64,000 bases of DNA from Deltaproteobacteria bacterium (GTDB lineage: Bacteria; Myxococcota_A; UBA9160; JAJDAL01), in the NCBI GenBank assembly GCA_029261875.1, contig JAJDAL010000012.1, forward strand, positions 62,001-126,000. Reading direction: 5' to 3'. This document shows positions 24,252-30,397 of the stretch, piece after piece. Positions within the stretch are counted from its first letter, which is position 1; each line of letters begins with the position of its first letter. The notes beneath the pieces were generated by a model, which was given only the letters and a program-made list of their open reading frames with translations, made no database searches and had not been told where the DNA came from. Position numbers and translations under genes: made by a program.

Positions 24252-24428
24252 TCAATTGGTTTTGTCCCGCCGACGCAGCGCATTCTCGATGGAAATCGCC
24301 AAGAGGCTCACGTTGCTGATGAGCAACGAAATCAACGTTGGCGTCCGTTTCTCACCCTCCGACAGCGTGAAGATCACAAGCGCCACGATCACGAATGCCG
24401 CTGCGATGATGCCGTGAAATCTGCGCAT
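24252..24428 (-). CDS. 58-residue membrane peptide, last gene of the asparagine-synthetase-like operon
   Basis: A strong AGGAGG lies 6 nt before ATG 24428. The peptide has two hydrophobic helices (residues 6-22, IIAAAFVIVALVIFTL region, and 31-47, LISLLISNVSLLAISI region). They are joined by a charged turn (SEGEKRT), with a basic C-terminus (LRRRDKTN). It overlaps the 3' end of the upstream cupin gene by 40 bases in another frame, so its ribosome site lies inside that gene, suggesting coupling. It is too hydrophobic to look like a cleaved RiPP core. A small membrane subunit or anchor for the operon products is plausible. Confidence 0.6.
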   Translation of the reverse strand: MRRFHGIIAAAFVIVALVIFTLSEGEKRTPTLISLLISNVSLLAISIENALRRRDKTN

Positions 24429-25117
24429 GGTTGCCCTCCTTTCTTGCGCTCCGGGAGGAGCGTTCGGTTGAGCATGGGATGAATCTCGTCACTCGGTCCA
24501 AAATCGCTATCTGGGTGAAACGCCACGATTCGCAACTCCGATGCCTCGGTCCGAAAACGGTGTTCGCAGCCCGCCGGAATCTCGAAGAGCGAGCCCGGCT
24601 CGAGCGCGTGCACGCGACCCCTCGATTCGCACCAACCGGACCCCACAGTCACGAGACCTACGCGTAGAGAAGGATGGGTGTGTGGAGTTTGATGAATGCC
24701 GGGAGGCACGTGCAGGAAATTGAGACACGGATCGCCTCGGGTGCACGGGGGAAGCAATAGGGAGTCGGTGCAGCCGTCGATGTAGCGCAGGCGCCCGCTT
24801 GTTTCGACGGGACCACCGAGGAGAAACACGCCGCGGTCTGCGCGTTTGGTGACCACGAAGCCCGCCCCCTCACCCGCTAGTCCAAGGTCTCCGGGAACCG
24901 AGAAGTACATCCCGGCGAAGACGGGAAAGGTTCGTTTTCCGCTCGTGATCTCGACGCGCCCCCGGTGCACGAAGCCGTAGTGGGTTTCCGGTTCTCGCCC
25001 CACACGCGCGAGATCGAGGGGCGCGCCGACGAAGGTCCTCGTCGTGACCCCGGCCACCCGGTCCACGACATGCGAATCGGCCTCGAGCGCGCGAACCTTC
25101 AACGCTTCGGATTTCAT
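24389..25117 (-). CDS. Cupin-domain protein (two-cupin, RmlC-like)
   Basis: This is a 242-residue protein starting at ATG 25117, with GAGGAGAGGGAG upstream. The N-terminal half (HYGFVHRGRVEITSGKR, then FAGMYFSVPG) and the C-terminal half (HVPPGIHQTPHTHPSLRVGL, then GSLFEIPAGCEHRFRTE) each have the beta-barrel cupin pattern. The second half keeps the metal-binding H-x-H-P motif and a later His. It sits 11 bases after the second asparagine-synthetase-like gene. Cupins of this sort can be dioxygenases, isomerases or small-molecule sensors; the context suggests it modifies the same product as the operon's ligases. Confidence 0.75.
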   Translation of the reverse strand: MKSEALKVRALEADSHVVDRVAGVTTRTFVGAPLDLARVGREPETHYGFVHRGRVEITSGKRTFPVFAGMYFSVPGDLGLAGEGAGFVVTKRADRGVFLLGGPVETSGRLRYIDGCTDSLLLPPCTRGDPCLNFLHVPPGIHQTPHTHPSLRVGLVTVGSGWCESRGRVHALEPGSLFEIPAGCEHRFRTEASELRIVAFHPDSDFGPSDEIHPMLNRTLLPERKKGGQPCADFTASSQRHS

Positions 25118-25128
25118 TCTCCCTCTCC

Positions 25129-26910
25129 TCAAGCGGCAAAGACGCGACGAAGCCACGCCTCGAGTGTCACCAGCAGCCAGAGCTTCGCTCCGCGACGCGG
25201 GTGAAGCCTGCGATCCTTTCCCGCCAGAATCTTCTCCACCGCGTCCCGGCGAATGATCCCGAACGGGGCCAAACCATCGAGCAACCGCTCCTGTGCGGCC
25301 CGGCGCATCGGGCCGCGAAACCACGCCTCGACGGGGACGAGCATTCCGCTCTTCGGCCGTTCGATGATTTCGCGCGGCAACAGGTCGTCGACCGCGCGTT
25401 TGAGGACGTACTTCTCGATGTTTCCGCGAAGTCGGAACCCGGCTGGGATTCCGAAGGCCAACTCGACCACATCGCGGTCGAACAGCGGCGAGCGCGCCTC
25501 GACACCGAACGGCGCTGCAAGCTGATCGACCTTGGGAAGAATGTGGTGCGCCCCCTTCGTGCGCAGGTTCACGGTCATCAGTTTCGCCACCAAACTGCGT
25601 TGGCGCGGGTCGTCGAAGAGCGGTTCGAATCGCCTTGCAACGGGATCCGAATTCACCGCGTGCAACCAATCCTCGCTGAGTAAGTCATCGAGGTCCTCCG
25701 AGCACTTCTCGAAAGCCCGGAGGTAGATCTGCTCGCGCGTCGGCGTACCCCTGCCCGAGGGGCTCCCTACGCCCTGCACGCTCCCCGCGAGCATGGGTAG
25801 ATTCTTGGGGCCACCAAAGCAGGGGTCTCCCCCTTCTCCGTTCAACACGACATCCACATGGCGTGCCGCCTCGCGAAACAGCAACGCGTTGGGAACCGTG
25901 AGGGGATCCCCGTTCGGCTCATCGAGCGTCGCAACCACGTCGTCGAGGCACTCGAGTACGCGCCGCGCGGGAATGGTGATCACGTGATGCCGGGACCCAA
26001 TGTGATTTGCGACCCATGAACTCCAGGGCAGTTCATTCGCGTGCCCGCGGCCAAACCCGATGGAAAACGTGTGAAGCGGACCGGAGTGGAGCCGGCTCGC
26101 CAGGGCCGCCACGAGACTCGAATCGACACCACCGGACAAGGATGCCCCCACGCGCGATCTCCCATCCGGCAAGCGGCGTTCGACGGCGCGTTCGAGCTGC
26201 GCCCGCAACGTGGAGACCACCTCGAGCTCATCGCATTCCCGCGACACAGGCTCCCGGGGGAGTTCGAAGAACAGCGCGCTTTCGATCTTGCCCCTCGCAA
26301 AACGCAATCGCGTACCGGGAAGCAACTCTTCGATCCCCGCGATCGGGGTTTCGCGTCCCGGGACGAAGGCACAACACAGGTATGCGGCAATCGCAGGTTC
26401 GTGCAAGGCGCGCTGGCTGGGCGGAAAGGCGAGGAGCAGATCGCGCAGTGAGGAAGCGAAGAGTATGCCTTCATCGACGATGAAGAAATAGAGTCGTCGC
26501 TCTCCGATTGCGTCGCGCGCCAATTCGAGCGCGCCTTCTCCGTTGCGCCAAGCCAGTGCAAAGCCGCCCCGGATATCCGCCAGACGCCCCGCTCCGAGAG
26601 CCCGGCGCCACGCGTCTTCGTTCGGGAGTCGCTCGCCATCGAGCTCACAGGTATCCGCATCGACGCGCACGAGGCTCGGCCCGGGCGCGGGTTCTGCGGG
26701 TACTTCGAGCCACTTCACCCGGGAACCGAGCCCGGTACGCCAGCGCCGCAACAACGCTTCGGGAATTCTTCCCGCGCAGCCCGCGATGCGCCCCCCGGAC
26801 CGTTGCCCGCGCGCAGCGTCGGGAATCAGAGGGGACCGCAGTGTGGCGATCGATCGCCTCAGGACACCACCGAACCCATCTCGCCCTCTTGCAGTGGGGA
26901 CACCGGTCAT
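25129..26910 (-). CDS. Asparagine-synthetase-like ATP-dependent ligase, degenerate glutaminase (copy B)
   Basis: This is a 593-residue protein starting at the ATGA overlap (26907-26910) with the zinc-ribbon gene. The C-terminal synthetase half is well preserved: the PP-loop SGGVDSSLVAA, LDEPNGDPLTVPNALL, NGEGGDPCFGG, EARSPLFDRDVVELAF and RPKSGMLVPVEAWF. The N-terminal glutaminase half is weak: residue 2 is Thr, not the nucleophilic Cys of AsnB. A Cys in an AGCAG context only appears at about residue 45, and the NGEIYN loop is absent. Such proteins adenylate a carboxylate and join it to an amine without glutamine hydrolysis, as in beta-lactam or lasso-peptide cyclases. The substrate is unknown. 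Confidence 0.8.
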   Translation of the reverse strand: MTGVPTARGRDGFGGVLRRSIATLRSPLIPDAARGQRSGGRIAGCAGRIPEALLRRWRTGLGSRVKWLEVPAEPAPGPSLVRVDADTCELDGERLPNEDAWRRALGAGRLADIRGGFALAWRNGEGALELARDAIGERRLYFFIVDEGILFASSLRDLLLAFPPSQRALHEPAIAAYLCCAFVPGRETPIAGIEELLPGTRLRFARGKIESALFFELPREPVSRECDELEVVSTLRAQLERAVERRLPDGRSRVGASLSGGVDSSLVAALASRLHSGPLHTFSIGFGRGHANELPWSSWVANHIGSRHHVITIPARRVLECLDDVVATLDEPNGDPLTVPNALLFREAARHVDVVLNGEGGDPCFGGPKNLPMLAGSVQGVGSPSGRGTPTREQIYLRAFEKCSEDLDDLLSEDWLHAVNSDPVARRFEPLFDDPRQRSLVAKLMTVNLRTKGAHHILPKVDQLAAPFGVEARSPLFDRDVVELAFGIPAGFRLRGNIEKYVLKRAVDDLLPREIIERPKSGMLVPVEAWFRGPMRRAAQERLLDGLAPFGIIRRDAVEKILAGKDRRLHPRRGAKLWLLVTLEAWLRRVFAA

Positions 26911-27956
26911 CCGAAAGAGTCGCTTCCCGGATGGCCCATCGCCGCGAAGGTTCGTTTCAGGAGCGCAGCCGGTCGCAGGGCGAGAACCTCGCAGCGATAC
27001 CGGTTGAGCCAACGCAGCTCGCTTCTCTTGAGTTCGTGAGGATCCGGGACGAATCCGGGACCGGTCGCAGCATCGAAACAGCCGTTTACGATCCGCGCAT
27101 GGCGGGGTTTCAGGCCGATGTCCGTCACTTTCGCACCCGTATCAAAAAACCAGGATGGGTCTTTGCGCAGCCTTTGTGTCAACGCACAACCTTCGGGTGC
27201 GGCGTCGTGAAGAACGAACACTTCGAGCGCCGGGTTGTTGCCCATCATCGTCCGCAGCGTGTCGAATACCCGGCTCGGATAGCCATCTGCACTCACGATC
27301 GCGCAGCTGTGTTCGAAGTGAAAATCGTTCGCGACGAGGAGGTCTACCAGTTCGGGGCGCTCACAGACCACCGCTCGATCGAACGCGTAGCGCTCGAGCT
27401 CTTCGCGATCCGCCGACGACGCAGACGTCTCCTCGAGATCCGGCGCAACGGTCTCGGCGAAACCGGGCTCGACGAGTCCCGGCGGAAGCTCATGGGTGTT
27501 GCGCCACCGACTCCACAACTGTTGAAACTGCGCCTCATCCAACCGCGCTTGCGGTCCTGGGCGGAGGAAAACCCAGAACAGCGGCGAGACCACCATCCAA
27601 ACCGCAAACACGATCGCGATCGCGGTTTCGAGCGAGTACCCGTACCCCTCCATCATCCTCTGCCCGAGCGCGAGCATTGGAAAAATTCCGGGAAAAACGC
27701 TGAGGGCCAGATAGCGGCGAACCCAGTCCCGACGCGCCATTCGAAACATGCGACGGCAGACAGCGAACCGCACGTTTCGCGCGAGCCAGCGCAACTCGCC
27801 CTGGCCCGAAACCGTCGTTACTGCGCTGTGGAACATCGGGTCTGTAACGGGATCACCGTTCTTCGGCTCGAAGGCGAAGGGCTTCCGACAATGGCCACAG
27901 CGCTGGCCGGTGCGGAACTTATAGGGGGAATCCTTTTCGCAATAGATGCACCTCAT
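26907..27956 (-). CDS. Zinc-ribbon membrane protein between two asparagine-synthetase-like genes
   Basis: This is a 349-residue protein starting at ATG 27956, which overlaps the stop of the upstream gene by ATGA. Residues 1-30 form a zinc ribbon (CIYCEKD, then CGHCRKPF). Two hydrophobic helices follow (LALSVFPGIFPMLALG and IAIVFAVWMVVSPLFWVFL). The larger C-terminal domain is soluble (DRAVVCERPELVDLLVAND, then EVFVLHDAAPEGCALTQRL, then DTGAKVTDIGLKPRHARIV) and alternates strands and helices in a Rossmann-like way. I do not recognise a named family. Coupling at both ends to AsnB-like genes suggests it works with them at the inner membrane. Confidence 0.75.
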   Translation of the reverse strand: MRCIYCEKDSPYKFRTGQRCGHCRKPFAFEPKNGDPVTDPMFHSAVTTVSGQGELRWLARNVRFAVCRRMFRMARRDWVRRYLALSVFPGIFPMLALGQRMMEGYGYSLETAIAIVFAVWMVVSPLFWVFLRPGPQARLDEAQFQQLWSRWRNTHELPPGLVEPGFAETVAPDLEETSASSADREELERYAFDRAVVCERPELVDLLVANDFHFEHSCAIVSADGYPSRVFDTLRTMMGNNPALEVFVLHDAAPEGCALTQRLRKDPSWFFDTGAKVTDIGLKPRHARIVNGCFDAATGPGFVPDPHELKRSELRWLNRYRCEVLALRPAALLKRTFAAMGHPGSDSFG

Positions 27957-29710
27957 GACATCGGCGCTCCGGAGCCCGGCGCGCGACCGCGGCCGTCGAT
28001 GAAGATGCGCAGCCATGCCTCGAGCATGAGGAGCGCCCAGACCTTCTCACCGACGCGGCGCGACCGAACCTCCCCTTCGCGATCGATACCACGAGTCAAG
28101 GGCGTTACGAACTCGGGGCGGAAGAGCCCGCGCTCGCGTAGAGACCGTTCCGACAACAGCGCTCGCACCCAACCCCGCATGGGACAGCGAATCCAGCGGT
28201 TGACCGGCGGCGCCATACCGGATTTGGGGCGCTCGACGATTTCGGCTGGGAGATGGGGAAGCAAGGCCTGTTTGAGAACATGCTTCTCGCGCGCTCCCGA
28301 GAGTTTCTGGTGCGGGGAAAGGTCGAACGCCACGCGCGCGAGAGCGCGGTCGAACAGGGGTGAGCGCACATCGAGCCCAGCGCCGGCCGCCATGGATTCC
28401 GCACGCGGCAACAAGTTTCGAGCGCCGCGCGTGGCGATATCCGAGCGACGCAGGCGGTGTAGAAACGATTTGTCTCTCGGGTCCTCGAGGTAAGGCTGCA
28501 AGAATCCGGATCGGTCGTCGCGGTCTCCCAGCGCGGAACGAAACTCGGGTGTGTAGAGCTCGTTCTCGAATCCGAAGAAGCGATGGCTCGTGCGCAAAAG
28601 CGCGTGCACATCGGCGCGACCGTGGAGTGCCGCTGCGATCATGGGTTTATTGCTCCAGCCGCCGAATAATTGATCGCCTCCTTCCCCATTGAAGACGGCA
28701 TCGAGGTCCAGCGCCCGGGCTTCCTGGGCGAGCAAGTACTGTGGCGCGGTAACGGGGTCGCCATAGGGAAGATCGAGTTTGTGAACGACGTCGGGGAAAC
28801 TCGCGCGCAGAGATCGCCCCCGAACCCGAACGCTCCGCGACTTCGAACCCAGGTAGCGGGCAACCATCCGCGCTTCGCGATGCTCGACACTATGTCGTCC
28901 GAAAGACAGACTCAGGATTTCGTGGGCGACCCCCGCGTCGCGCAAGGCCCAGGCCACGGCCGACGAATCGAGCCCCCCCGAGAGGTACACGCCCAAGCGC
29001 TCGCCGGAGAAAACGCGCCGCTGCACGGCCTCGCGCACAGCCTCCAGCACGCGCTCAGCGCCGCAACCGTAGGAACCGACATGGGACACCGACTCCGGCG
29101 CCCTCAACTCCGCGTAGGGGTCGAGCTTCAGTCCACCGCTGTGCCAGCGCGCAAGGTGTCCGGGAGGAATCCGCCGAATGCCCGCTACGGGTGTCGCGTT
29201 TCCCGGTACAAAGGAGAATGTGAGGTAGTGGTGGATCGCCTCGAGATCCATTTGGACCGGCAGGGAGTCCACGCTGAGCAACGCCTTCAACTCGCTGGCG
29301 AAATAGAACGTCCCACGGTGTTGGGCGTAGAACAGGGTGCGGTGTCCGAACGGATCACTGCACAGCACGAGGTCGCGTGACGCAGGCCGGTAGGCCGCAA
29401 CGGAAAACGCACCGTCCAGGTCCCGCAGGTCCGCGGGCACCGCGCGCAGGATTTGCTCGACAACTGACGACGATGAAGTGAGGCCCAGGACGTGACCCGC
29501 GCAAAACCCGACGATCGCAGCGTCGCGATCTTCCGGTGGAGTGGCGACTTTCCCGTCCGTGCGCGCCCGCGCGATTCGGCCGAGCGCGAAGCCCGATCCC
29601 TCGACGACCACAGTCTCGCCCCCGCGATGCGCCATCGCGGCGAGCATGCGCGAAACCTGATCGGGAGAGCCGTCGCCGACCCACCCGCAAAGGCCAGCCT
29701 GCCGGCCCAT
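27953..29710 (-). CDS. Asparagine-synthetase-like ATP-dependent ligase, degenerate glutaminase (copy A)
   Basis: This is a 585-residue protein. The synthetase half is intact: PP-loop SGGLDSSAVAWAL, KLDLPYGDPVTAPQYLL, NGEGGDQLFGGW, DVRSPLFDRAL and RPKSGMAPPVNRW. The glutaminase half begins GLCGWVGDGSP, with Cys at residue 8, not residue 2, and keeps AHRGGETV. The glutamine-binding NGE loop is replaced by VGFCAGHVLG. Without N-terminal processing the Cys cannot act as an N-terminal nucleophile. It is the first gene of the operon, with a purine-rich GGGGGGAAGAG before ATG 29710. It and copy B share an order of motifs and probably arose by duplication, but their glutaminase halves have diverged. 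Confidence 0.8.
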   Translation of the reverse strand: MGRQAGLCGWVGDGSPDQVSRMLAAMAHRGGETVVVEGSGFALGRIARARTDGKVATPPEDRDAAIVGFCAGHVLGLTSSSSVVEQILRAVPADLRDLDGAFSVAAYRPASRDLVLCSDPFGHRTLFYAQHRGTFYFASELKALLSVDSLPVQMDLEAIHHYLTFSFVPGNATPVAGIRRIPPGHLARWHSGGLKLDPYAELRAPESVSHVGSYGCGAERVLEAVREAVQRRVFSGERLGVYLSGGLDSSAVAWALRDAGVAHEILSLSFGRHSVEHREARMVARYLGSKSRSVRVRGRSLRASFPDVVHKLDLPYGDPVTAPQYLLAQEARALDLDAVFNGEGGDQLFGGWSNKPMIAAALHGRADVHALLRTSHRFFGFENELYTPEFRSALGDRDDRSGFLQPYLEDPRDKSFLHRLRRSDIATRGARNLLPRAESMAAGAGLDVRSPLFDRALARVAFDLSPHQKLSGAREKHVLKQALLPHLPAEIVERPKSGMAPPVNRWIRCPMRGWVRALLSERSLRERGLFRPEFVTPLTRGIDREGEVRSRRVGEKVWALLMLEAWLRIFIDGRGRAPGSGAPMS

Positions 29711-29923
29711 GCGCTCTTCCCCCCTTCCGGAGAGTAGCGGTCTGTGCACACTTGGCCGCAAGGAATGACGTTCATGTTCGGATTTGATCGCGCGGGAAGA
29801 GGACGAGTGGGCGCCTCTCAAGCGACGAAGCGGCGTCCAACTCCCGTATCGACGGGCATCCCGCTTGCCAGGCCGCTGTAGATATCCGAGTCTACGGTTT
29901 CCTTCCTACGGAGGTTCCCACCC

Positions 29924-30397
29924 ATGCCGAAACTCGGTGACTTCTCGATGCAATCCATTTCCGGAGAGACGATCCCGCTCGCCACCTACGAAGGTCAGGT
30001 CTGCCTGATCGTCAATCTCGCAAGTCAGTGAGGCCTCACCGGCCAGTACGCAGGTCTGCGTACCCTTCACGAAAACAACGAAGGCTTCACGGTGCTCGGG
30101 TTTCCGTGCAACCAGTTCGGCGCCCAGGAGCCCGGTAGCGACGCGGAAATTCTGGAGTTCGCGCGCAGCCGATACGGCGTCGAATTTCCGCTGTTCGCCA
30201 AAGTCGAAGTCAACGGCGACGGCGCCTGTGACCTGTATCGCTTCCTCAAATCGGCCGCTCCCGGCGAGGACGGCACGGAAGACATCCCGTGGAACTTCAC
30301 GAAGTTCCTCGTGGATCGAAACGGAAGCGTAATCAAACGCTACGGGCCCAAAGTCACCCCCGAGGACATCGCGAAGGAACTCGGCAACCACCTCTGA
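29924..30397 (+). CDS. Selenocysteine-containing glutathione peroxidase (in-frame UGA at Sec36)
   Basis: Reading through TGA at 30029-30031 gives a complete 157-residue GPx. The UGA falls exactly at the catalytic chalcogen position: NLASQ-U-GLTGQY, where family members have Cys or Sec. The rest of the catalytic tetrad is Q64 (FPCNQFGAQEPGS), W123 and N124 (IPWNFTKFLVD). The ATG at 29924 has GGAGG 9 nt upstream. A perfect hairpin 15-32 bases after the UGA is suitable as a bacterial SECIS. The enzyme reduces hydroperoxides using thiols. It lacks a signal peptide, so it is cytoplasmic. An automatic caller would split it or call it a pseudogene; the intact downstream frame argues against decay. 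Confidence 0.85.
30046..30063 (+). promoter_or_regulatory. Bacterial SECIS-like hairpin after the Sec UGA
   Basis: GTACGCAGGTCTGCGTAC folds as a perfect 7-bp stem with a GGTC apical loop. The loop starts 22 bases after the UGA (30029-30031), within the short distance required by SelB. The loop has G in its first positions and a U, as in known bacterial SECIS elements. Confidence 0.75.

Follow-up and report, generated by a model that had tools for sequence, protein, structure and literature searches.

A putative selenocysteine glutathione peroxidase with an in-gene SECIS hairpin in an uncultured member of the Myxococcota

Glutathione peroxidases (GPxs) that carry selenocysteine (Sec) have been known from bacteria since about 2005 (PMC1088965; PMC2398784); they were reported, together with a bacterial SECIS element (bSECIS), from the Sargasso Sea and GOS metagenomes (PMC1088965; PMC2398784) and are listed in a 2026 catalogue (PMC13188914). 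Published constraints describe the bSECIS as a stem of 4-16 bp with a loop of 3-9 nt, a G within the first two loop positions, a distance of 16-37 nt from the UGA and a minimum free energy (MFE) of at most -7.5 (PMC13188914). A 2021 analysis of how GPxs evolved states that those of bacteria possess both cysteines and that in animals Sec made the resolving one dispensable (PMC8614756). A myxococcotal host order for bacterial Sec-GPx was not found stated in the papers searched. This article describes such a gene in a stretch of 64,000 nucleotides from a member of that phylum (the window, meaning the whole stretch of DNA that was analysed) and compares it with its relatives.

The gene and its in-frame UGA

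The features of the locus are as follows, numbered from the first letter of the window.

29910..29914, + strand: probable Shine-Dalgarno sequence GGAGG, 9 nt 5' of the ATG, from direct reading
29924..30397, + strand: GPx (GSHPx) gene, 157 aa, with predicted Sec at residue 36 (PF00255; read-through translation; TGA at the same codon across the 58-gene Sec set)
30029..30031, + strand: in-frame TGA, U36, at the catalytic Cys/Sec position (TGA in 58 genes, the window's included; TGC/TGT in 50)
30046..30063, + strand: bSECIS apical hairpin, 7-bp stem GUACGCA/UGCGUAC, loop GGUC (fold, covariation, collapse of third-position entropy in codons +5 to +10, absence in Cys homologues)
30113..30115, + strand: Q64 codon, catalytic tetrad (invariant, 108/108 aligned GPxs)
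30161..30163, + strand: codon 80, Ala, the resolving-cysteine site of Cys-type GPx (Cys in 48/50 Cys-GPx, 0/58 Sec-GPx)
30290..30295, + strand: W123 and N124 codons, catalytic tetrad (invariant, 108/108)

The reading frame starts with ATG, passes through the TGA at codon 36 and terminates at a second TGA (30395-30397). Its product matches the Pfam profile PF00255 at E=3.7e-37 (126.7 bits against a gathering cut-off of 27), includes animal GPX4 among its PDB relatives (E about 1e-38) and has the complete catalytic tetrad of U36, Q64, W123 and N124; no other GPx gene in its own genome scores above the cut-off. A preceding sequence-only reading of this DNA had placed the TGA at the catalytic Cys/Sec codon, which is borne out by TGC or TGT at codon 36 of Cys homologues, and had numbered Q64, W123 and N124 correctly. 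It had also expected automatic annotation to lose the first 35 residues. The loss would instead be 56 residues if annotation stops at the UGA, because the first in-frame start downstream is the GTG at 30092.

The relatives used for comparison comprise 108 GPx genes, taken from a one-genome-per-species scan and from 61 genomes of the window's order, and were divided into 58 with TGA at the catalytic codon (the Sec set, with the window's gene) and 50 with TGC or TGT (the Cys set). Two genes were each reached twice (L023/L114 and L034/L124), leaving 56 distinct genes among the 58 Sec rows. L023 and L034 belong to MAGs named as Myxococcota, and their DNA is identical to loci of G038 and G032, both of the window's order, which places the window in this phylum. 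The Sec set spans Myxococcota, Actinomycetota and Pseudomonadota.

The hairpin and its imprint on the protein

The stem behind the UGA is a perfect 7 bp, with arms at 30046-30052 and 30057-30063 enclosing the loop GGTC at 30053-30056. The sequence-only reading described it accurately, as starting 15 bases past the UGA, with 14 nt lying between and 21 nt separating UGA and loop. The RNA of 30029-30076 has an MFE of -16.7 kcal/mol (z = -2.4 against shuffles), and the hairpin falls within all of the published bSECIS constraints (7 bp, a 4-nt loop GGUC starting with G, 21 nt, -16.7 kcal/mol). The same reading judged the coincidence of stop and hairpin very unlikely by chance, which proved too strong: when the downstream peptide is recoded synonymously under window codon usage, 2.7% of draws contain a perfect stem of 7 bp or more in bSECIS geometry, and of all TGAs on the + strand of the window 7.6% are followed by an equally long stem in this geometry. 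By itself the hairpin is thus weak evidence, and comparative evidence is required; its significance comes from conservation across homologues. A search of the 64-kb window against Rfam at the gathering threshold gave no match, and scanning the genome of the same organism with the SECIS model for GPx and the pattern TGA...GCAGGTCTGC gave no second convincing element of the GPx type.

Conservation across the Sec set is extensive. All seven stem pairs form in 52 of the 58 genes and six of seven in the remaining 6, against 0-5 of 7 pairs in the 50 Cys genes. Only the hairpin codons, +5 to +10, show a collapse of third-position entropy, to about 0-0.5 bit; most codons flanking the hairpin on either side have 1.2-1.9 bits. 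Compensatory changes on both sides of a pair (C-G to U-A and G-C to A-U) are found in 10 of 55 distinct Sec sequences, a number reached by 0 of 500 shuffles. When the stem partners are slid by 2 columns, pairing is still 73% owing to the near-palindromic nature of the element, and the covariation score alone is therefore not to be over-read. The six Sec sequences that break one pair (L026, L033, L044, L049, L061 and L068) form a Gammaproteobacterial subgroup with the SECIS apex GCCGGGUUGC in place of GCAGGUCUGC, an alteration that may go with an altered SelB. A later match, L146, which stands outside all counts, likewise combines TGA with the hairpin variant GUAUGCAGGUCUGCAUAC and lacks the resolving cysteine.

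The hairpin lies within the coding region, and its codons vary in concert. Only four combinations of codons 42/43/46 occur in the Sec set, namely TAC/GCA/CGT (40), TAC/ACA/TGT (7), TAC/GCC/CGT (6) and TAT/GCA/CAT (5), such that A43T is always paired with R46C, and R46H is paired with a change from TAC to TAT. Residue 46 is Glu or Gln in 48 of the 50 Cys-GPxs and Arg, Cys or His in Sec-GPxs. On the simplest reading of these alignments, the 3' arm of the hairpin determines which amino acid stands at position 46, and keeping the hairpin would appear to force paired changes in the protein such as A43T with R46C. A limited search of papers gave no statement of such a coupling between residues 43 and 46 and the RNA in bacteria.

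Selenocysteine machinery, host range and rival readings of the UGA

The machinery for Sec insertion is encoded in the same genome, as the sequence-only reading had implied, with all four components above curated cut-offs. These are selA (525 bits, contig G000:C11), selB (314.5 bits, C27, with a full-length C-terminal region), selD (333.6 bits, C39) and selC, the tRNA-Sec with anticodon UCA (72.7 bits, C19). They lie on four separate contigs, so no two are seen together in one cluster. Apart from the one on C19, the RF01852 matches that were inspected proved to be ordinary genes for tRNAs (Ser, Thr, Tyr, Gly, Arg). SelD of this genome (L018 1501-2424, on G000:C39) has an in-frame UGA in GGGUARKLG followed by a hairpin GACCUG-GUU-CAGGUC with the loop GUU, and is predicted to be a selenoprotein itself.

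In an even sample of the phylum, TGA-containing GPx genes were found in 14 of 141 genomes, all 14 in the window's class, and they occur in 24 of the 61 genomes of the window's order when the fragmentary G043 is included. All 24 have selA, and the five genomes of the order without selA have no TGA GPx; this co-occurrence is weak, since 56 of the 61 genomes have selA (hypergeometric chance about 0.07). That Actinomycetota and Pseudomonadota have similar genes points to horizontal transfer or ancient retention, with the tree too weakly resolved to favour either. Searches with tblastn for the flanking proteins of the window in the surroundings of the relatives' GPx genes gave no matches, and no conserved operon therefore backs a function. 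On the - strand at 25129-29821, a 369-aa ORF lies between two asparagine-synthase-like genes (25129-27012 and 27953-29821), with a cupin gene (24389-25669) beside them, a region that could be a biosynthetic cluster.

A single base separates TGA from TGC and TGT, and the source assembly consists of 60 contigs at 94% completeness, so that a Cys-GPx gene broken by mutation or misread in sequencing has to be considered. What refutes this is that 58 genes from three phyla conserve the TGA at the same codon together with the hairpin. The frame also stays intact for 121 codons past the TGA with the catalytic residues invariant, and we regard such an error as very improbable. A conserved gene holding an in-frame TGA might also be expected where UGA has been reassigned genome-wide to an ordinary amino acid, as in the Trp or Gly codes. 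UGA is not reassigned here, however, because selA, selB and the GPx gene itself each terminate at TGA; moreover, the in-frame TGA stands at the Cys/Sec catalytic position rather than at Trp or Gly positions, where only Cys or Sec fits, and the chance of reassignment is negligible. The sequence-only reading had named an absence of Sec machinery, or TGC/TGT in place of the TGA, as grounds for abandoning it. Instead selA, selB, selD and tRNA-Sec(UCA) are present, and TGA at this codon is common to 58 genes in three phyla.

Given this evidence, the gene almost certainly encodes a Sec-containing, monomeric PHGPx-like GPx, a one-selenol peroxidase that would depend on SelB for decoding of its UGA via the hairpin and is probably reduced by glutathione. 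SelB with Sec-tRNA(Sec) and GTP would bind the mRNA hairpin at 30046-30063 and deliver Sec at the UGA at 30029-30031, while the terminal UGA, with no hairpin behind it, would act as a normal stop. The U36 selenol, held by Q64, W123 and N124, is expected to reduce H2O2 or organic/lipid hydroperoxides.

Resolving cysteine, reductant and comparison with known systems

Residue 80, in the FC motif, is Cys in 48 of 50 Cys-GPxs and in none of the 58 Sec-GPxs (Fisher value 1e-28, in which independence is overstated as the sequences are related). The window GPx has A80 and thus lacks the FC-motif resolving cysteine by which thioredoxin-type (2-Cys) GPxs are recognized. In a tree from which the SECIS, active-site and residue-80 columns were omitted, a 96% branch separates the Sec and Cys forms, and the fewest Sec/Cys changes number 3 compared with about 36 in shuffles. 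Only L025 and L039, both with TGT, fall inside the Sec side. These Gammaproteobacterial GPxs (L025 2367 and L039 3106) are probable Sec-to-Cys revertants, because they lie within the Sec branch and retain a decayed hairpin and no resolving cysteine.

Since residue 80 provides no resolving cysteine, the most likely route for the selenenic acid would be direct reduction by a pair of low-molecular-weight thiols, probably of glutathione, instead of a path through an internal disulfide and thioredoxin. The genome is predicted to support glutathione synthesis, with gshB (365 bits) and a GCS2 glutamate-cysteine ligase homologue (218.9 bits, from a broad family that alone is no proof of GshA) both above cut-off; glutathione is for this reason the likely reductant. 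It might be argued that Sec is inserted into a thioredoxin-type peroxidase in which C102 or C62 has taken over as resolving residue, since position 102 is Cys in 36 of 58 Sec-GPxs and mostly His in Cys-GPxs, and C62 is invariant in both kinds. Position 102 is nevertheless not conserved (Ala in 14 and Ser in 7 of 58), and C62 occurs just as regularly in enzymes that resolve through Cys80. All 58 Sec-GPxs have lost the cysteine at the established resolving position, as has animal Sec-GPx (PMC8614756). We therefore consider a substitute resolving cysteine unlikely and favour direct reduction of the selenenic acid.

In bacteria, the Sec-GPx clade thus seems to mirror the loss of the resolving cysteine in animals, where it is likewise missing from Sec-GPx (PMC8614756). 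Taken jointly, the data make it probable that one clade of bacterial Sec-GPxs, distributed over Myxococcota, Actinomycetota and Pseudomonadota, lost this residue in parallel to animal GPX4, that the in-gene SECIS dictates residues (A43 with R46 to T/C; R46 to H with a synonymous Tyr change) and that loss of Sec leaves one-Cys enzymes in which the old mechanism is not regained (L025, L039). In a limited search of papers, no statement was found that couples Sec to systematic resolving-cysteine loss in bacterial Sec-GPx. With the two apparent revertants, the 58 Sec and 50 Cys genes amount to a clean natural experiment on the constraint that an RNA element within a gene places on the protein, and on whether bacterial enzymes with Sec can dispense with a resolving cysteine, as has been proposed for animals. 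The gene further indicates that uncultured Myxococcota of one class use Sec to defend themselves against peroxides; genes of this kind are easily cut short by automatic annotation.

Among described systems, the SECIS of E. coli fdhF shares the stem-loop decamer GCAGGUCUGC with the window hairpin, but has a bulged U that is missing from the latter, carries the decamer 3 nt nearer the UGA and has an unlike lower stem; without the bulged U, SelB contacts may differ from those in fdhF. Cys-type bacterial GPxs (BtuE/Gpx7-like, thioredoxin-type) show roughly 45-60% full-length identity and the same Q, W and N catalytic residues, but have an active-site Cys, the FC-motif resolving Cys (48/50) and no hairpin. 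Animal GPX4 (PHGPx) resembles the window GPx in its active-site Sec, lack of a resolving Cys and monomeric-type length, but relies on a eukaryotic SECIS in the 3'UTR, whereas the window hairpin lies within the coding region. Closest of all are the bacterial Sec-GPxs of the GPX-like selenoprotein family, which share the GSHPx fold family, the catalytic UGA in a UxxT context and a bacterial SECIS immediately downstream, and from which the window gene has no described difference in kind.
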